From a virus: a DNA stretch of 45,773 bases. The stretch covers positions 1 to 45,773 of IMG/VR virus record IMGVR_UViG_3300033145_000637; one strand, 5' to 3'. Of this stretch, positions 3,556 to 45,324 are shown one piece after another (position 1 is the stretch's first letter; the number at the start of each line of letters is the position of its first letter). Below the pieces are notes generated by a model. It was given only the letters and a program-made list of their open reading frames with translations. It was not told where the DNA came from and ran no database searches. The position numbers and the translations under genes were made by a program.

Positions 3556-4536
3556 CTAGTTCCCTAGCTCTTCCTTTATCCTCTTTACTATTTCTTTACT
3601 CATCTTAGGATTTTCTCTCAAAAAGATGCGTGCTTTGTCATAACCTACTCCTAGTCTCGTATCACCATAGGAATAAGAAGCACCTGCTTTTTTGATAATC
3701 CCAAATTTTTCTCCTAATCCTAAAATCTCAGAAGGCCTAGAAATACCTTCATTATATATCAAGTCAAATTCCGTTTTCTTGAACGGTGGGGCCACTTTGT
3801 TTTTTACAACTCTTGCTCTAATTCTTCCCCCTATAGTCTCCTCGCCTTTTTTAATTTGAGCTATTCTTCTTATGTCAATTCTCACAGAAGAATAAAATCT
3901 AAGAGCTTTTCCTCCTGCTGTAGTTTCTGGGTTTCCATACCCACCTATGTTCATTCTAATTTGGTTGATAAAAATAATTGTTGTGTTTGACTTTGCTGAA
4001 ACAGAGGTTAGTTTTCTAAGTGCTTGTGACATTAACCTTGCCTGTAATCCAATGTGTTTGTCTCCCATTTCGCCATCAATTTCTGTTTGTGGTGTTAGTG
4101 CGGCAACGGAGTCAATAACTATTACAGCAACTTCTCCAGAACGGACCAGGCTCTCAGTAATTTCTAGGGCTTGTTCTCCACTACTAGGTTGAGATAACAT
4201 TAAGTCTTTTACCTTGACTCCCAATTTTTCAGAATACTCTGAATCAAGTGCGTGCTCAGCGTCTACAAAAGCACATAGTCCACCTTTCTTTTGTGCTTCG
4301 GCAATAATGTGTAGAGCAAGTGTTGTTTTACCGGAAGATTCTGGTCCAAAAATTTCTACAACCCTACCCATAGGAACACCACCAACGCCTAGTGCGTGGT
4401 CAAGTCCAATAGAGCCAGTAGAGATAGCTCCCACGTCAACCTTTGGAATATCGCCAAGTTTTATTATTGAATCTTCGCCGTATTTTTCTTTAATCTCTTT
4501 CAGTATGGTTTCTAAATTATTTTGTTTTTTTGCCAT
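3556..4536 (-). CDS. recA: RecA recombinase
   Basis: A complete 326-residue RecA, the ATP-dependent strand-exchange protein. Seen in order: Walker [10 protein letters not shown] (64-72), the EHALD segment (94-98), Walker B VIVIDS (138-143), loop L1 around residues 150-167, the NQIR segment (191-194) and loop L2 with [12 protein letters not shown] (201-212). It ends soon after the core, without the long acidic tail of many bacterial RecA proteins. It sits among recombination genes (NinB-like, DEDDh exonuclease, resolvase-like nuclease). The leader is AT-rich, without a clear Shine-Dalgarno. Confidence 0.97.
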
Positions 4537-27367: not shown

Positions 27368-27901
27368 TTAATATGAAATAAGTGCTTTACAAGTATGCTC
27401 ACCATCGGTTGCTTCAACTACACCACACCTGATGTATTTGATGGCATCGTTTGCCGTATCCATTGAATACATCTCGGTTGTAGTACCAGCTAATGCTGAT
27501 GAAACATTAACTCTTGTAATATCCTGTGAATTGCTATTCGTTACGTTATCAACCAGTTTGTTATACCAGACCCAATTTGTTCCATCCTCGGAAACTTCAA
27601 CACCGAAAGTTGAACTGCCTGAGTTTCCCTGTCCAGTAGTATCACCTCTAGAGAAGTACCATGTAATTTTCTTGGCTCCTGCCACAAAAATTGCTGACGG
27701 ATTTGTAGAAGTGGATGTGGTGGTTGTAGCATTTAAGAAAGTTTCTACTTTATATGATCCACCAGGATAGTATCCACGTTCGAGATATCCTCCAACAGAC
27801 ACCTCTTCATTAATGGTTTTTGGCTGACCAAGTGAGTAAGCGATAAAACCTAACTCAAGAACTATGATTATTAACAAAATTGTGATAAAACCTTTTTTCA
27901 T
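27368..27901 (-). CDS. Membrane-anchored or secreted beta protein
   Basis: From the ATG at 27901 the protein has 177 residues. It begins MKKGFITILLIIIVLELGFI, a signal peptide or anchor, followed by a Ser/Thr-rich beta domain with VEVSEDGTNWVWYNKLV and a late CGVVEATDGEHTC, which could form a disulfide. The upstream AGAGAAAG favours this start over the one at 27943. Export signals are unexpected between capsid and tail genes. It is coupled by position to the signal-peptide protein at 27986-29092. Confidence 0.6.
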   Translation of the reverse strand: MKKGFITILLIIIVLELGFIAYSLGQPKTINEEVSVGGYLERGYYPGGSYKVETFLNATTTTSTSTNPSAIFVAGAKKITWYFSRGDTTGQGNSGSSTFGVEVSEDGTNWVWYNKLVDNVTNSNSQDITRVNVSSALAGTTTEMYSMDTANDAIKYIRCGVVEATDGEHTCKALISY

Positions 27902-27929
27902 ATTTACTTTCTCTTTTAAATTATTAATG

Positions 27930-27987
27930 AGATTAAATCTCATCCCTGTGGCCAGTCACAAGCAAGCCACAGAGGAAAATTTAATCT
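27930..27987. repeat. Two-part hairpin between two surface-protein genes
   Basis: AGATTAAAT (27930-27938) pairs with ATTTAATCT (27979-27987), and inside it CTGTGGC (27946-27952) pairs with GCCACAG (27966-27972). Both stems are perfect and nested. No U-run follows on either strand, so a standard terminator is unlikely. It overlaps the stop of the upstream gene and may stabilise or divide the mRNA. Confidence 0.5.
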
Positions 27988-29092
27988 AGCTTGGGTCTGT
28001 GCAAAGCAATTTAGATGCTGTTTCTCCGCGAGAATTGAGAATATTCCAATTTGTTCCATCGGAAATAAGCTCAACAAAATCTCCTATCTGTTCTCCATCA
28101 TACACAAATTCAATCTTATCTTCTCCTGAACAAGCGACAATCGCGTCATTCACAAAGAGAGAACCATTTATATTGTCCCCCTCTGCTGATACGATACTGT
28201 AATTAGCAGTATCAAACGCGGCTTGAACGCTGAACGTGAATATTTGGCCAACAGTTGATACCGCAGGAAGCGTTGTCGTTGCTCCTGTAGTTTTAAGAAA
28301 GTTTATTTGCCCACTGTCTGCCGCTGTCAATGTGTCGTCATAAGCAGAAGTAGTTGAAACTCTGTAAGCAGATAAAGTTCCCGTAACAAACACATCTCCA
28401 CCAGTCGGAGCAAATGTGAAGTCGCCATCCCTGTCTAATATCATGTCATCGGTATTGAACAAGAAATCTCCACTGTCAAACTCAGCTACAACAGACAATG
28501 TATATCCATCGTCTAGCTTCTGTAAAAACTGAGTAGAAAATTCTATTGACGTAGAAGCCGTGTCATCCATTATCGTCAGAATTTCAAACGAAGATGTCGC
28601 TGTTCCGCTGTCGTCCTCCATCCATTGAGTCAAGATTGTACTTTGCCATCCATCCTCCATAATCAAGCCACTGCTGTCTGTATCAATTAGAGTTAGTAAT
28701 GTAGTGTCTGTGCTTGAAGCTGCGTCGGAAGTGATACTTACAATACCATCGCTCATTGTGAAATCCCCAAGAGTAACAGTCAAATCAGTTCCTACTGTCA
28801 AAGCGCCTGTTAGAGAAACAGCGCCGGTCAAAGTAGTAGCGCCGGTAACAGATAACGTCCCACTCATCTCAACATCAGATGTGATATGAGAAACACCCCC
28901 AATGCCATCCTCTTCATACACATCTTCATACCCCTGATAAACAGGTGGCAAGAAAATGGGCTGGATATAGTAAGGCATTATCTGCGGTTCTGCATCGTAG
29001 ACAGTCTTAGAAGCGACAGCAGAGCTGATAAATCCACCAATCACTAGCGTTAGTACAACTGTTGCGAGAATAATATAACTTTTTTTGCTCAT
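27986..29092 (-). CDS. Secreted repeat protein, fibre-like
   Basis: From the ATG at 29092 the protein has 368 residues. It starts with a clear signal peptide (MSKKSYIILATVVLTLVIGG, cleavage likely after SAVASK or nearby). Short beta repeats follow (SGTLSVTGATTLTGAVSLTG, ALTVGTDLTV), then Asp/Thr-rich segments and a C-terminal domain (NGSLFVNDAIVACSGEDK, TNWNILNSRG) as in fibre or surface proteins. The start at 29092 follows the upstream stop by four bases; the longer frame from 29164 would bury the signal peptide. A Sec signal in the capsid block is odd for a virion protein. Confidence 0.65.
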   Translation of the reverse strand: MSKKSYIILATVVLTLVIGGFISSAVASKTVYDAEPQIMPYYIQPIFLPPVYQGYEDVYEEDGIGGVSHITSDVEMSGTLSVTGATTLTGAVSLTGALTVGTDLTVTLGDFTMSDGIVSITSDAASSTDTTLLTLIDTDSSGLIMEDGWQSTILTQWMEDDSGTATSSFEILTIMDDTASTSIEFSTQFLQKLDDGYTLSVVAEFDSGDFLFNTDDMILDRDGDFTFAPTGGDVFVTGTLSAYRVSTTSAYDDTLTAADSGQINFLKTTGATTTLPAVSTVGQIFTFSVQAAFDTANYSIVSAEGDNINGSLFVNDAIVACSGEDKIEFVYDGEQIGDFVELISDGTNWNILNSRGETASKLLCTDPS

Positions 29093-29635: not shown

Positions 29636-30613
29636 TTAGGAGTTGTCTCCTTTGGCTCCAGCAATATAAGCAGGATGACCAATTCCTACTGTATAAAAGA
29701 AGTCACAAGAGTATGACCAGTTTTTGTTCTCATAAGCCTGATCAGGAGCGTCTAACGTTGGTCGTTCTGCAAACTTAGCCTGCAAAGACTCACCCACCTT
29801 TTTACTTTCAGTCATGAACCAATAAGCATCTGTGTCAGTACCTTGACCACTAGTGTCAAGTCTTTCCCAAACGATTATGCTCTTAATCTTTCCTTTCAGG
29901 TTGTTTATGTCGTTGTCCATCGAGCCTTGTAGCAAGTTGGAGTAAACGATTCGTTCTGCTATATCTTCGTTGTCTTGGCTAACTATTAAGGTGTCAAGCT
30001 TAACAGGTCTAATAATGCCATCTGCGCCTTTGTGTCCACGCCTCAATGCGCGAGTCGCAATAATGGCGGCCCTCGATATTGCAGGGTTAGTGTTCGTACC
30101 GTCAGTTATAATGTTTGTGTAGGTCTCTGAACCAACATTGTAATCGTGACCGGAATTAAACAAAGTTTTTGCATTAGGGCCAACAGAAGTAACTGTACCT
30201 CCGAACACGTCAGTATAACTAGATGACCATCCATTCAAAAGAACGTCTGCAAAACTCTGGTCAATTTTGCTGAAAGCATCATCAACTAAAGTTTTAGGAA
30301 GCTGTTCAATCTTTCCGAATAGATCGAACTTCCTCATCTCTTTTGTGACATCAAACAAGCCACCAAAATACCTCTGTGTCCAGATTATGGAATCACCCTC
30401 GTTAGAGTTGATGCTTGGTAGGTCTTGACCAGGGGTTACCTCTTCAATACCCTCCACTCCATGAATCATCTGGTACTCATAGCTTCTGCGATTAGTGTCC
30501 TTTACACTAAAAATCTTGAGTCCCTGCATATCTGCGATAGCATCTTCAGCGGACTCATTGAAAATCTCTTCGAGATCATCAGTAAGGGCTGGAAAATCTG
30601 ATTGAGTAATCAT
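29636..30613 (-). CDS. Major capsid protein (Mu gpT-like, HK97 fold)
   Basis: This 325-residue protein has the pattern of Mu-type major head subunits: an N-terminal helix (LTDDLEEIFNESAED), then YFGGLFDVTKEMRKFDLFG, an A-domain segment KTLFNSGHDYN, ISRAAIIATRALRRG and KLDTLIVSQDNEDIAERI. The C-terminus (NWSYSCDFFYTVGIGHPAY) ends in the usual strands. No protease domain is fused. The gene order scaffold, decoration, capsid fits a tailed-phage head block. Context and length are right. Confidence 0.8.
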   Translation of the reverse strand: MITQSDFPALTDDLEEIFNESAEDAIADMQGLKIFSVKDTNRRSYEYQMIHGVEGIEEVTPGQDLPSINSNEGDSIIWTQRYFGGLFDVTKEMRKFDLFGKIEQLPKTLVDDAFSKIDQSFADVLLNGWSSSYTDVFGGTVTSVGPNAKTLFNSGHDYNVGSETYTNIITDGTNTNPAISRAAIIATRALRRGHKGADGIIRPVKLDTLIVSQDNEDIAERIVYSNLLQGSMDNDINNLKGKIKSIIVWERLDTSGQGTDTDAYWFMTESKKVGESLQAKFAERPTLDAPDQAYENKNWSYSCDFFYTVGIGHPAYIAGAKGDNS

Positions 30614-32657: not shown

Positions 32658-32695
32658 TTATTATATCACACTTTTAATTATAATACTATTCACAA
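32658..32695 (-). promoter_or_regulatory. Late-promoter-like 38-bp element, copy 2
   Basis: The minus strand reads TTGTGAATAGTATT, 11 variable bases, then TGTGATATAATAA. It includes an extended -10 (TGATATAAT). The same layout, with identical spacing, occurs at 40287-40324. This copy overlaps the stop of the 66-residue membrane protein gene and precedes the head block. Confidence 0.6.
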
Positions 32696-32890
32696 ATCCA
32701 ACTTCTTAATAACAATATCCATCTTGGTATTAAGAGCTGAAACCTGACCGACAACTGTTGTAAAACTGTGATTAAACTTATCAGTCAAATCATCCATTCG
32801 TCCTATCATATAACCAGCAACAGCCAAGCTGACTGTAACCACTATTCCCATTGTCCAATAAAACATTTTTCTTGTTAAATATCCGTTCAT
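32690..32890 (-). CDS. Small membrane protein with helical tail
   Basis: This 66-residue protein has one transmembrane helix at about residues 10-28 (FYWTMGIVVTVSLAVAGYMI) and a polar helical tail (MDDLTDKFNHSFTTVVGQVS). It is joined to the previous signal-peptide gene by two tiny ATGA-linked frames. It may be an accessory of the membrane/surface cassette, or a lysis accessory protein. Confidence 0.55.
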   Translation of the reverse strand: MNGYLTRKMFYWTMGIVVTVSLAVAGYMIGRMDDLTDKFNHSFTTVVGQVSALNTKMDIVIKKLDL

Positions 32891-32948
32891 TTTGCTATTG
32901 TTTTACCTATTGTTATTATTTCTGTCATGCTTTAATTAGTTTTTTCAT
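32887..32948 (-). other. Two ATGA-linked mini-frames (7 and 13 codons)
   Basis: The stop of the LamG-like gene overlaps ATG of MKKLIKA (32925-32948). The stop of that frame overlaps the ATG of MTEIITIGKTIAK (32887-32928), and its stop overlaps the ATG of the 66-residue gene. All three junctions are ATGA. The chain may serve to keep ribosomes moving between genes. Confidence 0.4.
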
Positions 32949-33745
32949 ATTTCACTTATCATTGGTTGAATGTTAGGGGGGGCTTCTGCTGGGGGTGCCG
33001 CTCCACAAGCACCTGTAAGAGTTGGCAAATTCCCTGATTGAAAAGTTGCTGAATTATAAGCGTCCATATCGTTAGAACCAGCTCCGTCTGTGCCGTTGTT
33101 GTTAAATCTCCAATGTCCGACTAGATTATCTTCCGTGCCAGCCATATAACAATCGTAGTTTTCATCAATTTCTGAGTCTGTCCGAACGTCATCCCAAACT
33201 CTCACATAAGCAATATATCCATCAAAGTTGTAATAGTCATCAAGCATAAGTTGACCCACCCAAATTCCATTATTATTGTCGGTTGTATTTGGAGTAGCTG
33301 TAAAAGTGTCAGTTCCGTCTGGTTGTCCGTCATAATAGAATGTTACAGTTGTGCCGTCATAAGTGTGGGCAATATGATGCCAAGCACCTACTGGAACTAT
33401 TGTATTAGAAAAAGCAGAACTCTCGCCATAAATACCAATTATTTGCTTGCAAGGATTATCATCACCTACATTCCAAGTCCAATCTTGAGAAGTAGCTCTT
33501 GTTCCGTAATCCAACATAGAATAAAAATTGTTATTAACTGGAACTGTTTCCATATAAATCCACGCTTCTGCAGAACGAGCAGTATTTCCATAAGGCACTC
33601 CATTGTCAGTATCACTTTGAAAGTAGTCGTCTGTGTCCTTTTCCATATCTGCTGTGTGAGTATTAGAAGCGGCATAAATATAATTTCCACTCAGATAGAA
33701 TGTAGTTATTAGAATTATTGCTATGAATGTTTTTAGTATTTTCAT
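32945..33745 (-). CDS. Secreted LamG/concanavalin-like domain protein
   Basis: This 266-residue protein has a signal peptide (MKILKTFIAIILITTFYLSG, AA-S cleavage region near 25-28) followed by a LamG-like jelly roll: AEAWIYMETVPVNN, GAWHHIAHTYDGTTVTFYYD, GQPDGT, GYIAYVRVWDDVRTDSEI, and HWRFNNNGTD near the end. Such domains bind sugars or proteins. The tail is Pro/Ala-rich. It is secreted or surface bound, which is unusual for a gene inside a phage head region. It overlaps the previous gene (ATGA). Confidence 0.8.
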   Translation of the reverse strand: MKILKTFIAIILITTFYLSGNYIYAASNTHTADMEKDTDDYFQSDTDNGVPYGNTARSAEAWIYMETVPVNNNFYSMLDYGTRATSQDWTWNVGDDNPCKQIIGIYGESSAFSNTIVPVGAWHHIAHTYDGTTVTFYYDGQPDGTDTFTATPNTTDNNNGIWVGQLMLDDYYNFDGYIAYVRVWDDVRTDSEIDENYDCYMAGTEDNLVGHWRFNNNGTDGAGSNDMDAYNSATFQSGNLPTLTGACGAAPPAEAPPNIQPMISEI

Positions 33746-34158
33746 GTTGAAGTTGCAATTATTTCTGGTAATGTTTCAACCACTCTTGGCTCCCAAGTGT
33801 GAAAATCTGCAAGCACGCCGTACCCATAAGACCTTTGGATTATCTCTGTATCTGTTCTTTCTTCAGTGAGTATCACATAGCCCTTTTCGCCCTTGTTCGT
33901 TATGTAGGTATTAGTTTTGAAAGTAAAAGATATATCACCTATTTTAGTATCTTCTAAAGTTTTGCCTTTTTCTAGTTTTGGATATTTGCCAGTTTTTACA
34001 AATTCTTCGTCTTGGTATTTTTCAATAGCCCAAACAATGTCCAATTCGTTTGTGAGGGTTGGCTCAGGTTTCGCCGCGAAAGCTACACCCAAAAGCCCTG
34101 TCGCTACCAAAAATCCCACGATTGTTTTTTTTAAATTTTCTTTAATCCAATTCATCAA
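33742..34158 (-). CDS. Secreted small protein
   Basis: This 138-residue protein begins with a signal peptide (MMNWIKENLKKTIVGFLVAT, GLLGVAFAA-K cleavage). A mixed alpha/beta part follows (NELDIVWAIEKYQDEEFVKT, GDISFTFKTNTYITNKGEKG). No known domain. It overlaps the genes on both sides by ATGA, so it is made together with the 963-residue surface protein and the LamG protein. Confidence 0.65.
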   Translation of the reverse strand: MMNWIKENLKKTIVGFLVATGLLGVAFAAKPEPTLTNELDIVWAIEKYQDEEFVKTGKYPKLEKGKTLEDTKIGDISFTFKTNTYITNKGEKGYVILTEERTDTEIIQRSYGYGVLADFHTWEPRVVETLPEIIATST

Positions 34159-37046
34159 TTTGCGGTTTCATAATAAAATGGTGTAATTGTTACCCTGTCG
34201 GGAGTTGTCGCTCCTGTCATTATTTCTATTTTAAAGCTCTCCCATTGAGTCCAAGTGTTGTTGGTAGTGGTTAAGGTCAAAACTCCTGTGGTGTCGCAGA
34301 TAGCTGTTACAGTTTCGTTTGTGCCGTCTGTTAACAAGACTGTGGCTGTGCCTGCAGAGTCATCAACCTTGCAGTAGAACCCAAGCAGAGTAATAGCAAA
34401 AGGAAAGTTTTGAACCAAAAAAGTAGATGAAGCTGTTGAGTAAGAATTGCCCGAGCCGTCTAGTGTGGTTGAAGCGATATTCCAACCCTTAGAAGAAGTG
34501 GAAGTGAAAGTATTTATCCTGCCGTTGCCGTAGATTTGAAATTGTCCTGTCGTTGTGTCCCAATCTGTTTCACCCACGCTGTCGCTTGTTTGGTCTTGCG
34601 GAATTTCTAATACTGCCGAGCCAAGGTCAAGTCGTCCTGTAGAAGTCAAATCAACAATAGAAATGTCGTCAAATGTTGAAGCTGTGGCTGTACTTGTGGC
34701 TGTGAAGTAAGAAGCTACTACTCCGCCGTTTACACTTAATTTTGCATAAGGCGAAGTGGTGCCGATGCCGACGTTGCCGCTCGGTAATGTAGTAATATAC
34801 TCTGTTCCAGGTAAAGAAACTGAACCCGAAGTACCTGCATAATTTATACCAAAAGAACCATCACCAGGGTCAGTATTAAAATACCATCCTCTACCATTCG
34901 CATAAGTGGACTCCAAAAGAAAACCTAATCCTGCATTGCCGTTGCCAGAAATTCGTATATCATCTACTCCAACAAAAACATCCAAGACATAAAGCGGTGT
35001 TGTTGTTCCAATACCCACTCTTCCGCTTGCGGTTGCTAGATATGTATAATTTGTTGTTGTCAGTTGTGTGCCCGAAGCGTTGCCGAAGGCAAGTTGTCCT
35101 GTGGTTGTGATTGCTCCTGCACCAACATCTATTGAAGTAAAACCCGAAGTGATTGAGCCAGAATTTAACGCGCCAGTTCCTATTAAGTTAGTTTGATTAG
35201 TGTCAAGATACGCTTCGTCTATTGCTGTGCCATTCCAAGTGCCTGAAGTGTAAGTTGTGGTATCTATATTGGTTGCCGAAAGATAAGTTGTAGAGGCGTT
35301 TACTGTCAGAGTTGAAGTTGCGATTATTGTGCCTGTGGTGAGAATGGTATTTGCTCCCATGTTAAGAGTTCCTGTCATTGTGTCGCTTCCATCTATATTA
35401 AAATAAAGAACGTGGTCATCATCTCCTAAACCTGAAAGATTGCCGTGGTCTGAAATTGTACCACCTGGGCTTGAAACAGGAGTAGTCCGAATATCTATCC
35501 ACTGGTCGCCACCTGCTGTTGGTAGAGCCGAAGCATCTCCTTTAAGAATTAAACAAGTAGTTTTTGGTTGATTGGCTAATCCTGTTGGAAGTGTTTGAGT
35601 TGCTCCGCCTGTAATTGCGGCGTTTACATTTGCATATTCAACAGTTGGTGCCATTGCGTGCATATCTTCATCTATTTGAAAAAACATCCAAGCATAGTAT
35701 TTTGAAGCAGTTGTAGAAGCCATTGAGCCAGAATCACACCAACTATCTTCTGTTATTTCTACCCCTGTCAAATAAACATCACCGCCACACCATATCCTTA
35801 TATCAGCTAATCGTGTTGTCGTTGCAGGTACAATATGTTCTTCGTGGACATCATGGTAATAAATACCAGAACTGATTTGAACATCAAAAGCATAAGTTAC
35901 ATCCGTATCTTCTGATACAACCATTCCACTTGTTACAACAATGGGGAATGTATTTGCCAACCCTGTTTCAATTCCGCTCTCGCGGACATTTATTAAAGAG
36001 TCTGTGTGAACATCCCAAATATCACCATCTTGAACATTTATAACTGCAACAGCAATTTCATTTCCACTAGGAGCCGTTGTATTTAAAGTTAAACCACTAC
36101 CGCTGACCCATTTTAAGTAATTTATATTATCATTTGTTGTGCCTGTGGAACCCGAAGCTGTTGTGTCCACAATAAGAGCATTTGCCTTATCGTAAATCTC
36201 ACCCACAGTCCAAGACACATTTGTTCCGCCCTCATCTGTAACTGTGATAGTATCCATTACACCTTTATTGGCTACATCTACTGTCCATTGATTAAGGGTT
36301 TCTTTCCCAAAACCAAAATATAATCCACCGCCTTGCCCTAGCCAAGTAGAAGTAGCAAAACCTGTTATAGACAAATCATCAGCGATTGTGGAAGTTGCAT
36401 TGCCTGTAATATTAAAAAGTCCTGACAAAGACAGATTTGTTCCTGACAAAAAAGTTGAAGAAGCATTTTTAGCAATTAAAAGTCCATCAAAGAATGAAGT
36501 TGAAGAAGCATATATTGAATCCTGAAACCAAACAGGGGTGGAAGTAGCTGATGTGTTTTCGTTGTAATTAGTTGAAGGTGTCCAAGCGAAAGGGTCGCCT
36601 GAACCTGCCGCGGCTCCACAAGCCCCACCACTTCCCGACACCTTTCCTGTGGTATCTACTTGCAAGCATTGTGTTGAGCCCGTGATTCCTGTAACGGTTA
36701 AATTTGTAGTTGAAGCGTTTGTGAAAAACGCGCTAAAAATCCGAGAAGTAGATGATCCGATGCCCCACGTTGGATCTACCAAGAATGCACCATTTATAGA
36801 TGAGCTGATACCTTCATCCGGATACCAGACAGGAAAGAAATTTAATCCGCCACCAATTCCACTTGACTCTACCTGTAAGCCCTTTGTTTCTTTTTTTAAT
36901 TCATCTATCTTGGCCATCTCTGATTCTATTCGGTCAGACTTGTTCTTGTTATAATAGCCGAGTGTCATGGCGCCCAAAAAAGCTAGGACACAAATAGTTC
37001 CAATTGATATTCGTATAAAATTATATTGTTTCTTTTTTTTTGCCAT
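34155..37046 (-). CDS. Membrane-anchored chimeric surface/fibre protein (963 aa)
   Basis: A signal anchor (about 11-30; IRISIGTICVLAFLGAMTLG) and short coiled coil (36-56) precede a long Ser/Thr-rich region with NASTTNLTVTG and NASSTFLSGTNLSLSG repeats. A phage-fibre-like segment lies near 533 (GNLSGLGDDDHVLYFN, then MTGTLNMGANTI). Two VGIGTTTP/VGIGTTSP modules lie near 677 and 759, and a C-terminal beta domain (about 870-963) has C-K-V-D and A-I-C-D cysteines. The VGIGTT and ASTT style is typical of CPR surface proteins in my experience. The chimera may be displayed on the infected host or on virions. It starts at the stop of the coiled-coil gene (TAATG) and overlaps the next gene. Confidence 0.75.
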   Translation of the reverse strand: MAKKKKQYNFIRISIGTICVLAFLGAMTLGYYNKNKSDRIESEMAKIDELKKETKGLQVESSGIGGGLNFFPVWYPDEGISSSINGAFLVDPTWGIGSSTSRIFSAFFTNASTTNLTVTGITGSTQCLQVDTTGKVSGSGGACGAAAGSGDPFAWTPSTNYNENTSATSTPVWFQDSIYASSTSFFDGLLIAKNASSTFLSGTNLSLSGLFNITGNATSTIADDLSITGFATSTWLGQGGGLYFGFGKETLNQWTVDVANKGVMDTITVTDEGGTNVSWTVGEIYDKANALIVDTTASGSTGTTNDNINYLKWVSGSGLTLNTTAPSGNEIAVAVINVQDGDIWDVHTDSLINVRESGIETGLANTFPIVVTSGMVVSEDTDVTYAFDVQISSGIYYHDVHEEHIVPATTTRLADIRIWCGGDVYLTGVEITEDSWCDSGSMASTTASKYYAWMFFQIDEDMHAMAPTVEYANVNAAITGGATQTLPTGLANQPKTTCLILKGDASALPTAGGDQWIDIRTTPVSSPGGTISDHGNLSGLGDDDHVLYFNIDGSDTMTGTLNMGANTILTTGTIIATSTLTVNASTTYLSATNIDTTTYTSGTWNGTAIDEAYLDTNQTNLIGTGALNSGSITSGFTSIDVGAGAITTTGQLAFGNASGTQLTTTNYTYLATASGRVGIGTTTPLYVLDVFVGVDDIRISGNGNAGLGFLLESTYANGRGWYFNTDPGDGSFGINYAGTSGSVSLPGTEYITTLPSGNVGIGTTSPYAKLSVNGGVVASYFTATSTATASTFDDISIVDLTSTGRLDLGSAVLEIPQDQTSDSVGETDWDTTTGQFQIYGNGRINTFTSTSSKGWNIASTTLDGSGNSYSTASSTFLVQNFPFAITLLGFYCKVDDSAGTATVLLTDGTNETVTAICDTTGVLTLTTTNNTWTQWESFKIEIMTGATTPDRVTITPFYYETAN

Positions 37047-37987
37047 TATGCAGTATAGACATCAATCTCCATCACTTGAGAACCAGTAGTACACTGGAAG
37101 AAAATCTTAACTCCTGAGAAGTCTAACCCCTCAGCTTCTCTTGAAGAATAAATTGGGTCTGTTTGATATGCTAATCCATCGCCAGAAGTAGGCATCTTGC
37201 CTGTCTGCCATGAGTGTAAGAATGCCTTATTCGTAGAGCGTAATTTTATTTGAAAGCCGACTGTGTTGGCTGGGAATGTATAAGAATACTCCGTGTTGGC
37301 GTTTACAATCGCCACGTTGGATGTTGTTGCTCCCCGTGCGGCCATTGCACTAGGACTACCAACACCACCACCAGAGGACCTTATGGACCGCAACTGCTCT
37401 GTGTCCAATTTAAATGTTTGAGGAATCACAACCTTGAAAGCCTTTAAATAAGTAATGATAGTGTCAAGCTTGCCCTCAACTCCTTTGTTTTTGTTCAACT
37501 TCAACTCTTTCAATATCATCTTTAGTCTGTCATCCAAGTCATCAATGCCGGACAAATCAATGTCAGTCGCTTCAAGTTTAATATTACTGATAGCTTTCTC
37601 TACCCTTCCGAGTAGTTTGTGAGTCTGCTTGTCTCCACTAAATAACTTTTTAGTTTCTGTTATGTGTTTTTCAATAGCAGTCGTGATCGCCTTAAGCTTT
37701 GGGTTCATTTCTGAAACAGCCCCAAAACCTTTTTCAGCATCAGACATTGCGAGCTTCAAATCATTAAGCCCAGTCTTTGCTTCGGTTTCTGACAGTCCCT
37801 TGATAGCATCAAGAATCTTATCAATCTTGATATGCTTTTCATCCTGAAGTTTCTCAACTGCGGCAGATGTCAAATCAATTCTCATCTCTCCTTGAGAGCG
37901 TTCGGTAGCATCAAAAAGTTTGTCTAGTTTTCTCCCTAGATGTAATGCCAACTCTTTTAAACCTGCTACTATTTTATGAGTATCCAT
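37046..37987 (-). CDS. Coiled-coil plus beta-domain structural protein
   Basis: This 313-residue protein is mostly helical with heptads at about 20-190 (LGRKLDKLFDATERSQGEMR and later stretches). A short linker (SSGGGVGSPSAMAARG) leads to a C-terminal beta domain (IVNANTEYSYTFPANTVGFQ, then KIFFQCTTGSQVMEIDVYT). It probably forms an elongated trimeric or dimeric fibre on the head or portal. The layout follows the portal gene and precedes the anchored surface protein. Confidence 0.55.
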   Translation of the reverse strand: MDTHKIVAGLKELALHLGRKLDKLFDATERSQGEMRIDLTSAAVEKLQDEKHIKIDKILDAIKGLSETEAKTGLNDLKLAMSDAEKGFGAVSEMNPKLKAITTAIEKHITETKKLFSGDKQTHKLLGRVEKAISNIKLEATDIDLSGIDDLDDRLKMILKELKLNKNKGVEGKLDTIITYLKAFKVVIPQTFKLDTEQLRSIRSSGGGVGSPSAMAARGATTSNVAIVNANTEYSYTFPANTVGFQIKLRSTNKAFLHSWQTGKMPTSGDGLAYQTDPIYSSREAEGLDFSGVKIFFQCTTGSQVMEIDVYTA

Positions 37988-38002: not shown

Positions 38003-39994
38003 TTATTCTAAACCAAGCACCGACACTCCCTCTTCCGCAGGAGCCTCTCCTCCCTCTGGTGGAGCAGGTGGCGCTGGTGGATTATATTCATCAGTTGTTT
38101 CGCCATAGAGCTCAATTCGTTCTCCGAATAGCTTCTCTTTGTTTGTGGCCGCGTATTCTGGGAAGTATGTAAATATCCATTGATGCTTCTCGTCAACCTG
38201 TTCTGCTTTGGTGGCGAGTGACTGGTCCTCCAAACTCTTGGAGATAACTTGGAAGTCATATTCCCAATCATCAAAGTAATCAGAAGATGCTACTACCAGC
38301 TTATAGTTCACTCCCTCTTCTTCGGCCATTTGCTCACGTGCCTCAATTTCCTCGCGTGTAAATGCATCAAAGGGCTTTGTGCCATCCTTGGTCATCTTTG
38401 CCCTGTCTGAGCCAGCTGAGGCGATTTGAATGCCCAATGTACCGATAGAACCATCGGAAAAATCAACTTCATCAACTTCGTAGTAGTTTAGAGCCTCTTG
38501 AATCACATCTGCACTTTCTGGTCCAACTATTGTTTCATACTTAGGCGCAGTATAATTTTGGAGAATATTAAGGATTCGGAGCTCTGTTTTCTGTATCCAT
38601 AAATCCTTTAAGAACATAAATGGGATTTGTTTTAGTTTGCGAGCATACTCATCGGTTATAATAGCTTCGCGAGCTGTGCGCTTCTGTGCTCCTGCCTGAC
38701 CTCCTTGCATTGGGTCAACAGAGTTTTCGTCAACCATTTTCCATATGAGCTGAAGCATCGCCACATCACCAGAGTCAACTTTGGATTCTGGCATTGGCTT
38801 AACTTGATTCACATCAGGCACGTACCATTTGTTATCTTGATTTACCAACTCATCTTCAATGTCAAGAATATCTTTGTTGGCTAGTCCAACCAGCATGCCA
38901 GGAACTAATGAGCGATACCACTTGTCAAGAATTGTATTGATAGCTGTGTTAGATACGTCTTGCAATCCCTCGAGGATACCAGGTAGAGATTTACCACAAA
39001 AGAAATTCCTGTTTGCGAATGGTTCGAATATCATCTTGGCGAATGGATACTTCTTTTTCTTCTTGCCCCACAGTAATGGAGCTCTGAGCATCTCTACACC
39101 ATTAATCCATATCTCGTAAGTGTCTTGGAGGTTATTATAAAGCCGGACAACTTCATAGTGTGCATCTTCGCGAACCCGAGACTCCCATTTTTCATAATAA
39201 TAAGAATGAACATCTGAAGTGAACCGACCGGCTGTTTTTCTGTCTAAAACATATTTAAGGTTAGGGTTGTGCTTGAACTCCTGAATGAGCTCATCTTCTC
39301 CATAGTATTTTATCCAAGCTACCTTTGGTTGTTTTTGAACATCAGAAATGTACATGTCCCACCAAAAGAACTCCTCAATAGGCACTTCTAGTTCAATAGG
39401 TCTGTCGTCAACGAGTTCTTCTTTAACATCAAACTCTACTGCACCAGTAATTGGGTCAAAACTGTTGATAACTTTGCGTTCGTATTTTGTGCGAAGATAA
39501 CTATCGTATTTGATATAAGTTCCTTTGCCGGCCGCTCCCCACATATCGAAGAACACTTCTACCTCTGGGTTATCAACCTGTCTTGAGTGTCTGACTAGTT
39601 GCTTCATGGCTTCTGCCCTTTTAGCAGAAAAAAGCCCAAACCTATTGGTGGCTTTATAACTTAACTCAGGAATTTGTAGAGCTGTACCGGCAACGATTGC
39701 CTTTAATTTATTTCTAGTCTTAGGGTCAAAGAGGTTCTCTTGCCAATCATCCTTCCCTTGGGCCTCTCTAGTGAGTGTGTATCCATTGAGCCTACGGTCT
39801 GAATCATTCACATACTCAATGATTGTCCTGTCTCCCTCTCCATTGTTAAACTCCTTGTATTTTTCATTCTTAATATCGATCATGTAATCGATATCTTTGT
39901 AAGCTTCATCTCGCCTTTCACGAACATCCGCATCAGGACGATAACGCGCGGACCCTATCTTGTTAATCTCTTTAGAAGTTGATACGATTGCCAT
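38003..39994 (-). CDS. Portal protein (podovirus type)
   Basis: This 663-residue protein has the size and helical pattern of the large portals of short-tailed phages. Recognisable segments include an N-terminal helix with ERRDEAYKDIDYMIDI, the stretch VEVFFDMWGAAGKGTYIKYD, EVPIEEFFWWDMYIS, MIFEPFANRNFFCGKSLPGI, LQDVSNTAINTILDKWYRS, and an acidic Pro-rich C-terminus. It forms the dodecameric DNA channel of the head. The order TerL, kinase, co-chaperonin, portal is typical of a packaging block. It overlaps the small gene upstream by 23 bases. Confidence 0.82.
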   Translation of the reverse strand: MAIVSTSKEINKIGSARYRPDADVRERRDEAYKDIDYMIDIKNEKYKEFNNGEGDRTIIEYVNDSDRRLNGYTLTREAQGKDDWQENLFDPKTRNKLKAIVAGTALQIPELSYKATNRFGLFSAKRAEAMKQLVRHSRQVDNPEVEVFFDMWGAAGKGTYIKYDSYLRTKYERKVINSFDPITGAVEFDVKEELVDDRPIELEVPIEEFFWWDMYISDVQKQPKVAWIKYYGEDELIQEFKHNPNLKYVLDRKTAGRFTSDVHSYYYEKWESRVREDAHYEVVRLYNNLQDTYEIWINGVEMLRAPLLWGKKKKKYPFAKMIFEPFANRNFFCGKSLPGILEGLQDVSNTAINTILDKWYRSLVPGMLVGLANKDILDIEDELVNQDNKWYVPDVNQVKPMPESKVDSGDVAMLQLIWKMVDENSVDPMQGGQAGAQKRTAREAIITDEYARKLKQIPFMFLKDLWIQKTELRILNILQNYTAPKYETIVGPESADVIQEALNYYEVDEVDFSDGSIGTLGIQIASAGSDRAKMTKDGTKPFDAFTREEIEAREQMAEEEGVNYKLVVASSDYFDDWEYDFQVISKSLEDQSLATKAEQVDEKHQWIFTYFPEYAATNKEKLFGERIELYGETTDEYNPPAPPAPPEGGEAPAEEGVSVLGLE

Positions 39995-40329: not shown

Positions 40330-40602
40330 TCACACTTTTGCGATTATCAACTCAGCTTTAACAGCAGAGTATTTGACGTTGTCCACAATGAGCGGAACGT
40401 CATCGTACTTATTGATAATAACTTTGTCGCCTTTTTTAAAGCCATCATCTTTCACGTTGGGACCAACAGACACCACTTCGCCAAACACTCCATAGAACGC
40501 TTTCTTGTCATTAGAATGCTTCACGATAATACCGGACTTTGTAGTCTGGTCATGATCTTCTTCATTGACCTTGATAATAACGAAATCATTTAATGCTTTC
40601 AT
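40330..40602 (-). CDS. GroES-like co-chaperonin
   Basis: This 90-residue protein follows the Cpn10 fold: an N-terminal strand (KALNDFVIIKVNEE), a mobile-loop region (TKSGIIVKHSNDKKAF), GEVVSVGPNV, FKKGDKVIINKYDDVPLIVD and a final A-E-L-I-I-A-K-V strand. It should bind GroEL and support folding of the capsid protein, as T4 gp31 and similar phage proteins do. It lies between portal and terminase genes. No chaperonin gene is seen in the window, so host GroEL is needed. Confidence 0.85.
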   Translation of the reverse strand: MKALNDFVIIKVNEEDHDQTTKSGIIVKHSNDKKAFYGVFGEVVSVGPNVKDDGFKKGDKVIINKYDDVPLIVDNVKYSAVKAELIIAKV

Positions 40603-40631: not shown

Positions 40632-40916
40632 CTATAACTCTATAAATTTACAACCTGTTATTTGATAAACCTCTATTGGGAATGGACATATAGTTGATAC
40701 GATAATCGTGAATCCTTGTACTTCTAGAGCCTTGGCCAATTTGGCTATCCTTATGTTGTTTTCCAGTCTGTCTTTGTTTGAAAAGCCCAAATCTTCTGTT
40801 ATGCAAGCTCGCATATCATCTCCGTCTAGGTTTATGCTGTTAGGTATGAGTTTCTGTAACTCTTTTGCTGTAGTTGTCTTGCCAGACTTTCGTTGACCTC
40901 GTACCCAGATAATCAT
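40632..40916 (-). CDS. APS-kinase-like P-loop protein (short form)
   Basis: This 94-residue protein matches the first half of CysC: P-loop GQRKSGKTT (7-15), NLDGDDMRACITEDLGFSNK, DRLENNIRIAKLAK, and FTIIVSTICPF. Normal APS kinases have about 180-200 residues; this one ends after the F-I-E strand and lacks the C-terminal half, including the lid and the rest of the APS-binding site. It may be a minimal kinase, a broken copy, or a different nucleotide kinase. The ATGA overlap with TerL suggests it is retained. A sulfotransferase gene at 44027-44695 would use the product of a full APS kinase. Confidence 0.65.
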   Translation of the reverse strand: MIIWVRGQRKSGKTTTAKELQKLIPNSINLDGDDMRACITEDLGFSNKDRLENNIRIAKLAKALEVQGFTIIVSTICPFPIEVYQITGCKFIEL

Positions 40917-43827: not shown

Positions 43828-44034
43828 TTAACTATTAATCCTATCCCTATCAACTCTATCTCTTTCGTGGCCCGTCAACACAACCAACTGACCACAACGC
43901 TGGCATGCATATTTCTCAACGCGAGATTCATCAAACTTGGTGTCACAATCCCTTCTTGTCACCCAACTTGATGCCACAAGGTTGTGACCAAGAAAAAAAC
44001 AAATCACCAATCGTAGCTTGTTCATTTTAATCAT
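43828..44034 (-). CDS. DUF1660-like zinc-binding phage protein (copy 1)
   Basis: From the ATG at 44034 the 68-residue protein begins MIKMNKLRLVICFFLGHNLV and carries Y-A-C-Q-R-C-G-Q-L-V-V-L near the end. Cys, G-H and C-x-x-C are placed as in DUF1660 proteins. The ATG overlaps the sulfotransferase stop by 8 bases (ATGATTAA). It is similar to copy 2 in the same order of motifs, so the two probably arose by duplication. The start at 44025 is a possible alternative. Confidence 0.6.
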   Translation of the reverse strand: MIKMNKLRLVICFFLGHNLVASSWVTRRDCDTKFDESRVEKYACQRCGQLVVLTGHERDRVDRDRINS

Positions 44035-44695
44035 TGTGTTTCCATAAACTTGACTTAGTGCTTCTAACAACAGGTGCAGGTGGTAGCAATATCGACTCCA
44101 ATGCTCGCTGTACCTGGTTCTCTGTTGGCTTAATGTCAATGAATTTAATTATATCTTCTACTATCTTTATGCGATCCATGTGTTCATCGAACCATATTTC
44201 TAACACGCCATGAACATTAGTAGCAACCAATGGGTCAGTCCTCCATCCGTGTAAAAATTGCCTCAGATAGTTATCATCTCGTTCGAACCTGCGCTTAGCA
44301 TCCCAACGATTTATTCGCCAATGCTTTCTCATGGATTTAATGGTTTTTTTCTTGTCCCGGCGAATCCAAATAAACTTGGCCCCACCAGTCAATTTGAGGA
44401 TTTCAGGGAGTAAATGGGTGGTTATCGGATTTTTCCAACCCCAGTGTTCGCTTGTGTGACGTTTTTCTATCAAAGAGGACATGCTGGACCTCCACTCTTC
44501 CACGCCGATAAAACCTTTTAAGCGCCGAGAGCAAAGTAGTCCCATGTCCACATCTTCAAAATATCCGGCCGGTTGAGTTCTGATCGGGAGCGGAAACGTC
44601 TCACCCATGTTCACACCTAGGTGGAATAGAACTCTAGCGACCATACTACTGCCACATCTTCCGGTACAAACTACTATGGTTGGTTTGTTTTTCAT
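44027..44695 (-). CDS. Sulfotransferase
   Basis: From the ATG at 44695 the 222-residue protein begins MKNKPTIVVCTGRCGSSMVA, the 5'-phosphosulfate loop that binds PAPS (GRCGSS). GWKNPITTHLLPEILK and FIWIRRDKKKTIKSMRKHW supply the 3'-phosphate site (I-x-R-R-D and S-M-x-K-H). It should move sulfate from PAPS to a sugar, lipid or protein. The start overlaps the upstream gene by ATGA; the longer form from 44743 is less likely. It could modify surface glycans of the host, with PAPS made by the host or with help of the APS-kinase-like protein at 40632-40916. Confidence 0.82.
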   Translation of the reverse strand: MKNKPTIVVCTGRCGSSMVARVLFHLGVNMGETFPLPIRTQPAGYFEDVDMGLLCSRRLKGFIGVEEWRSSMSSLIEKRHTSEHWGWKNPITTHLLPEILKLTGGAKFIWIRRDKKKTIKSMRKHWRINRWDAKRRFERDDNYLRQFLHGWRTDPLVATNVHGVLEIWFDEHMDRIKIVEDIIKFIDIKPTENQVQRALESILLPPAPVVRSTKSSLWKHND

Positions 44696-45324
44696 TTCTC
44701 TTTGATTTTGTTTATGATGTCTTGTGCTGTTTCCTTTGCCCACTTTTTATTTATACGCCAAAAGAATGGTTCTGCTTCTTTAATAACTGTTTCAACATAA
44801 TGGTCTTTTCCTGCATAAAATTCTGTGTCTGTTAAAACCTCTATTATTGTTTCCTCTATGTCTGACTTTTGTTTTTTGAGTAGAGATGAGATGAAGTCTT
44901 TGAGTTTTTCTTCAGGATTTTTTGCATCTGTTCCAACTAAACTTGCCAAGCGTATTAACTCCTCCTCCCAGTTGTCTTTTTTGGATAGATTTACTCCTAT
45001 AAGACCTTTTTCTTTTTTGATTTTTCTGTATTCTGCCCATTCAACAGTCTTACAGCTATCAGTTGCTCCACATTCTTCACATATTTGATATGTTTTGGTT
45101 GGTTGTTTAGAAGCATAGTCAATTAGTTTTCTGCATGCTTCATCTGATATTATTTTAGTTTCATCGCCTTTGTTAGGCAAATTTTTAAAACAATTCGTAT
45201 GATAGATTTCCTCTCCTATAATGTGCTTGTGGTGATGTAGCAGAAATGGAGCATTACATTTTGTGCATCTCTTAGGTAATTCTTCACAATTAAGGATTTC
45301 TTTTAAGGTTTTCTCTTTTGTCAT
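44692..45324 (-). CDS. Protein with two zinc-binding Cys clusters
   Basis: From the ATG at 45324 this 210-residue protein has CTKCNAPFLLHHHKHI with a later H-T-N-C, and CEECGATDSC. A charged, helical C-terminal part follows (WEEELIRLASLVG, then IEETIIEVLTDTEFYAG). The two Cys clusters suggest zinc ribbons. It might bind nucleic acid. The start follows the stop of the small upstream gene after one base; an ATG at 45339 is the alternative. Confidence 0.55.
   Translation of the reverse strand: MTKEKTLKEILNCEELPKRCTKCNAPFLLHHHKHIIGEEIYHTNCFKNLPNKGDETKIISDEACRKLIDYASKQPTKTYQICEECGATDSCKTVEWAEYRKIKKEKGLIGVNLSKKDNWEEELIRLASLVGTDAKNPEEKLKDFISSLLKKQKSDIEETIIEVLTDTEFYAGKDHYVETVIKEAEPFFWRINKKWAKETAQDIINKIKEK

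Follow-up and report, generated by a model that had tools for sequence, protein, structure and literature searches.

Results

Genes between the portal and the tail genes

The window, the whole stretch of DNA analysed here, is the 45,773-base IMG/VR record IMGVR_UViG_3300033145_000637, and its late genes lie on the minus strand. From the portal gene the order is c313, c963, c138, c266, c66, two small genes and a scaffold-like gene, followed by a small head gene, the capsid gene (PF25209), g168, A, B and the tail genes. The capsid and terminase names come from profile matches; the portal, the scaffold and most tail genes were named by their place in the gene order and by comparison with relatives.

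Portal (context), 38003..39994, minus strand: name taken from gene order and relatives; matched neither Pfam nor PHROG.
c313, 37046..37987, minus strand: coiled-coil-like towards the N-terminus, with a beta-sandwich domain at the C-terminus; lacks a signal; its gene is coupled to that of the fibre.
c963, 34155..37046, minus strand: fibre-like; signal anchor at about residues 11-29, W..D/TWG N-module, Thr/Ser-rich body, C-terminal beta-type domain.
c138, 33742..34155, minus strand: signal-peptide protein of 137 aa counted from the ATG; candidate site AFA|AK.
c266, 32945..33745, minus strand: signal-peptide protein with a LamG / concanavalin-type lectin domain (PF13385, E 9e-20).
c66, 32690..32890, minus strand: 66-aa membrane protein with a coiled-coil-like tail; module membership uncertain; no Pfam match.
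Major capsid protein (context), 29636..30613, minus strand: PF25209, E 3.7e-13.
A, 27986..29092 (internal ATG start), minus strand: behind the capsid gene; signal peptide (AVA|SK); C-terminal domain signal-free in a relative.
B, 27368..27943, minus strand: beta-sandwich domain preceded by an N-terminal extension of 53 residues that contains a membrane anchor.

The original prediction described a cassette of exported and membrane-anchored proteins between the portal and capsid genes, and its open reading frames are all present at their positions on the minus strand. c963, c138 and c266 do lie between portal and capsid; c313, which comes first after the portal gene, had been omitted, and the set is larger than claimed, as A and B behind the capsid gene carry signals as well. 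Linkage of all the genes by ATGA or TAATG held for c313/c963 (TAATG, one base in common) and c138/c266 (ATGA), but c963/c138 is joined by TGATG, and c66, 54 nt beyond c266, is not coupled. The start of c138 is probably the ATG at 34155 rather than the TTG at 34158.

Elsewhere the window encodes a GroES-like co-chaperonin upstream of the portal gene (40330-40602; Cpn10, E 1.2e-12), a short APS-kinase-like protein (40632-40916; E 5.1e-17), a sulfotransferase-like protein (44027-44743; E 9.3e-7) and a short protein with likeness to Lcl_C / C-type lectin domains (583-831).

Export signals and topology

Signals were called from hydropathy, charge and the -3/-1 rule, and the N-terminal hydrophobic segments were compared with 2000 composition-preserving shuffles of the same protein. 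The observed value was reached in 6 of 2000 shuffles for c963, 1 each for c138 and c266, 5 for A and 0 for B, so that the signals predicted for c963, c138 and c266 stand. The predicted 66-residue membrane protein exists as an open reading frame, but its hydrophobicity is weak (109/2000). Of the 49 remaining minus-strand ORFs with 60 aa or more, only 2 reached a score of 1.8, a contrast that is descriptive because the six set proteins were chosen for their high scores.

The N-terminus of c963 has four lysines followed by a hydrophobic stretch and lacks an AXA-type cleavage site, and we therefore read it as a signal anchor. AXA-type sites are found in c138 and A; c266 has a hydrophobic N-terminus with no cleavage site under the strict rule applied, and the anchor of B is located inside its 53-residue extension. 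Among 30 set proteins examined, the more positive side is N-terminal in 27 (N-in, C-out), and 17 have an AXA-type site. By hydropathy and charge, the window proteins have the positive n-region, hydrophobic core and outside C-terminus of Sec-exported proteins, c66 weakly so. Because they bear such signals, c963, c138, c266, A and B probably sit on the outside of the infected cell.

These hydrophobic N-termini could instead be membrane- or particle-attachment segments in ordinary virion proteins that never leave the cytoplasm, an idea with which the occurrence of A and B domains without the segment in relatives agrees. We consider it improbable: the positive-inside bias and the AXA-type sites are seen in many different proteins, and the LamG proteins of both the window and one relative (G304) have signal-peptide-like N-termini.

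Fibre and lectin domains

The fibres share a make-up of a signal or anchor, a short W..D...TWG module in most, and a variable Thr/Ser-rich body, and several have a C-terminal domain in common. Pairwise similarities between fibres were computed with no composition correction and are inflated by the Thr/Ser bias; we therefore relied on gene place and on both protein ends. In Pfam and PHROGs, c963, c138, c313, A and B gave weak sub-threshold matches and no significant family, six related fibres found nothing in PHROGs, and a scan of c963 across genome contigs returned no relative. The LamG domain predicted in c266 was confirmed, with 71.8 bits against a curated PF13385 cut-off of 27.6, placing the protein in the LamG / concanavalin A-like class. 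For the small membrane proteins, a holin-like (XhlA-type) identity found no support in Pfam, and a papain-type peptidase among their neighbours was also unsupported; one neighbour has a peptidoglycan-binding domain.

c963 had no match at E 0.01 to t542, the tail-spike-like protein of this phage, and so seems not to be a copy of the receptor-binding protein; its match to t495 is weak and was obtained without composition correction. Residues 247-559 of c963 match, at 41%, a signal-free protein in another phage (L010) that sits between capsid and neck genes, as read by eye from translations. Among 286 Patescibacteria genomes, c963 was matched in 3, always by short stretches of ORFs of similar Thr/Ser-rich style, and the c313 profile was matched weakly in 2, over the coiled-coil part. 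The fibre C-terminal domain is present in just 2 of 379 Patescibacteria genomes, so c963 is no obvious borrowed host adhesin, and we found that origin unsupported.

In the structural model of c313, the last ~95 residues partly reach a pLDDT near 80 and nearly all the rest lies below 50; the model of B is fair (mean pLDDT 74). Foldseek searches of both models against the PDB gave no match with E <0.001. Phage capsid and neck proteins are just some of the many weak matches of B, which we do not count as evidence.

Recurrence of the gene order in relatives

With a capsid profile we recovered 43 viral loci and two loci in MAGs, compared with 6 from a single-sequence scan. In most relatives with a visible portal gene, the portal leads directly to g114 and the set is absent. 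Scans with c313 recovered 17 distinct contigs holding its beta-domain, 18 with the window. In 11 of the 18, the c313-type gene is followed directly by a fibre gene (the window, L028, G304, G291, G299, L075, L076, L079, L082, L084 and L105, of which L082, L084 and L105 fall outside the capsid-defined set; the L079 contig ends within its fibre). An anchored fibre is absent after c313 in 7 (L083, L085, L086, L087, which was left uninspected, L088, L089 and L113). As to whether close relatives lack the signals, a hydrophobic, signal-like N-terminus is present in 11/11 contigs with a fibre after c313, and in cassette-free relatives the homologs of A and B are signal-free.

A search for the same gene order in related phages was the proposed check, and G304 has that order: portal, c313, fibre, small anchored protein, LamG protein and small membrane protein. 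The set occupies the window's place in both G304 and L028. L028, L075 and L076 have portal, c313 and fibre with further exported or membrane proteins, and in G291 and G299 the block of portal, c313 and fibre is placed after the tail genes. The slot after the fibre repeatedly holds carbohydrate-type domains (LamG in G304 and L105, CBM96 in G004). Exported fibres occur without c313 in G001 and G004, so coupling to c313 is not universal. L105 has one uninterrupted run of genes that comprises B-like, A-like, two c313-type and fibre genes together with a fusion of a c138-like part and LamG. The fusion (L105:8191-9462) joins a hydrophobic N-terminus, a c138-like part and LamG in one protein where the window has two coupled genes; the likeness to c138 rests on motif and place (E 0.14). 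The signals, the gene order and its recurrence are thus read directly from the sequence.

Such arrangements would also suit virion appendages: c313, which follows the portal and has no signal, would be on the virion, while the exported fibre, A and B would join the particles only once the cell has lysed. The c313-type gene and the fibre are adjacent in L082, L084 and L105, and in G291 and G299 they remain together with the portal although the block follows the tail genes; the signal-free homologs of A and B among head genes point the same way. We nevertheless regard appendages as unlikely, as an interface is seen in no structure, the model of c313 is of low quality except at its C-terminal end, and for c313 and B alike the PDB gave no fold at the threshold used.

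A and B with and without signals

From about residue 54 onward, the B protein of the window can be aligned to 16 relatives that have no signal, and the B protein of L075, 55% identical to it, has a signal peptide. For A, L020 encodes a signal-free homolog (E 9e-14), and the slot is occupied by proteins with signals in L028, L029, L004, L021 and L075. Both proteins have signal-free homologs among head genes, so gain or loss of the signal took place as a unit. The argument of the original prediction that virion parts need no Sec signals is indecisive, because the same domains occur with and without one.

Exported proteins behind the capsid gene were found in 5/5 loci with the cassette (6 counting L075) versus 1/12 without it (Fisher 0.001, kinship ignored), a count from which near-duplicates (L003, L007, L038, L039), cut regions and cassette-unknown loci (L013, L017, L018, L024 and L027 among the complete ones) were left out, in which L004, L021 and L029 were set by hand to having the cassette, and in which L035, cut there, was scored as lacking it though anchored fibres occur further on. 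The signal in L027 is slightly below threshold.

Host

One family member, L011, is a provirus integrated in JAPLYZ010000012.1, a contig of Ca. Staskawiczbacteria, which NCBI puts in the Patescibacteria group. It is flanked by ribosomal protein genes and a purM-like gene and has an integrase-like ORF near one end (names from reading translations); a repeat of 14 bases close to the ends of the provirus may be the att core, but the same comparison gave a 15-base chance match. The window encodes a RecA (3556-4536) that is up to 68% identical to those of Patescibacteria genomes (187/192 match) and 42-53% identical in 9/9 genomes of one other phylum, the single outside comparison. We infer that the virus probably infects ultra-small bacteria, that is, a patescibacterial host. 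Caution is warranted because a second relative, a 3.8-kb fragment, is binned as Ca. Lithacetigena, of another phylum.

Discussion

The recurrence of the signals with the same gene order, the more positive N-terminal sides and the AXA-type sites support export to the cell surface, and with it, in part, the predicted display on the infected cell. Signals, topology and recurrence are most economically explained by export of a fibre-plus-lectin set. From these we infer export, late timing and a surface location. Our leading interpretation, tentative and held at somewhat less than an even chance, is a Sec-exported coat that masks the surface of the infected, probably patescibacterial, cell. The set would be expressed together with the virion genes, and the Sec pathway of the host would deliver its products to the cell exterior: the long anchored fibre c963, the small c138, the lectin-type c266 and the beta-rich A and B. 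They would coat the surface and bind glycans or receptors there, most likely masking them, so that neither other phage nor newly released progeny would adsorb to the cell or its debris. Several results sit uneasily with such a coat: c963 does not resemble a copy of the phage's own receptor binder, its residues 247-559 recur in a signal-free protein, homologs of A and B that lack a signal are found among head genes, and exported fibres occur without c313 in G001 and G004.

The original prediction had also raised contact with a partner organism, which seems sensible because a family member is integrated in a Patescibacteria contig and the group is described as epibiotic in PMC12911398. An exported fibre and lectin might accordingly tie the infected epibiont to its partner or to other cells, and the phage might gain, with the same doubtful standing, by keeping its host fed or bringing new hosts near. 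The LamG and CBM96 domains and the integrated relative speak for adhesion, as do the five concanavalin-like genes of groundwater Patescibacteriota phages, for which PMC12911398 proposes surface adhesion, and the concanavalin and adhesin domains that PMC13059738 reports for large surface proteins of an epibiont. Against it, the set genes sit in virion operons, so lysis should come soon after, and the fibre C-terminal domain is rare in Patescibacteria genomes. We judge adhesion doubtful, if worth serious attention. Masking is preferred but unproven, with adhesion and assembly on released virions close behind.

Phage head and neck fibres and decoration proteins resemble the set in their beta-rich bodies, their location among head genes and the beta-sandwich models (the c313 end and B). 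To our knowledge they have no Sec signal, unlike the window set. It is conceivable, though rather unlikely, that some phages of ultra-small bacteria assemble part of the particle outside the cell, with Sec-exported fibres and decoration-type proteins docking on c313-bearing virions after lysis.

Lectin-like genes in Patescibacteriota phages are already published. Those of the groundwater phages are alike in host group, domain class and proposed surface role; by annotation they are single auxiliary genes, and the term 'signal peptide' is absent from the text of PMC12911398, whereas in the window the genes form an ordered module, linked to the portal and c313, whose products bear export signals. 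A phage precedent that speaks for masking is the exported receptor blocker llp of T5, whose gene stands next to a receptor-binding (adsorption) gene and which is likewise put on the infected cell (PMC4728585). It is a lipoprotein, expressed early according to a title in the reference list of that paper; the window instead has an anchored fibre and lectin-type proteins in a virion operon. Limited searches over part of the literature found no ordered exported module of this kind.

Phage biology on Patescibacteria is little known. An exported module coupled to the portal and c313 offers a testable handle on how phages deal with the surface of an epibiont, and it also lets one ask whether the gain of a signal switches virion-type domains to surface display.
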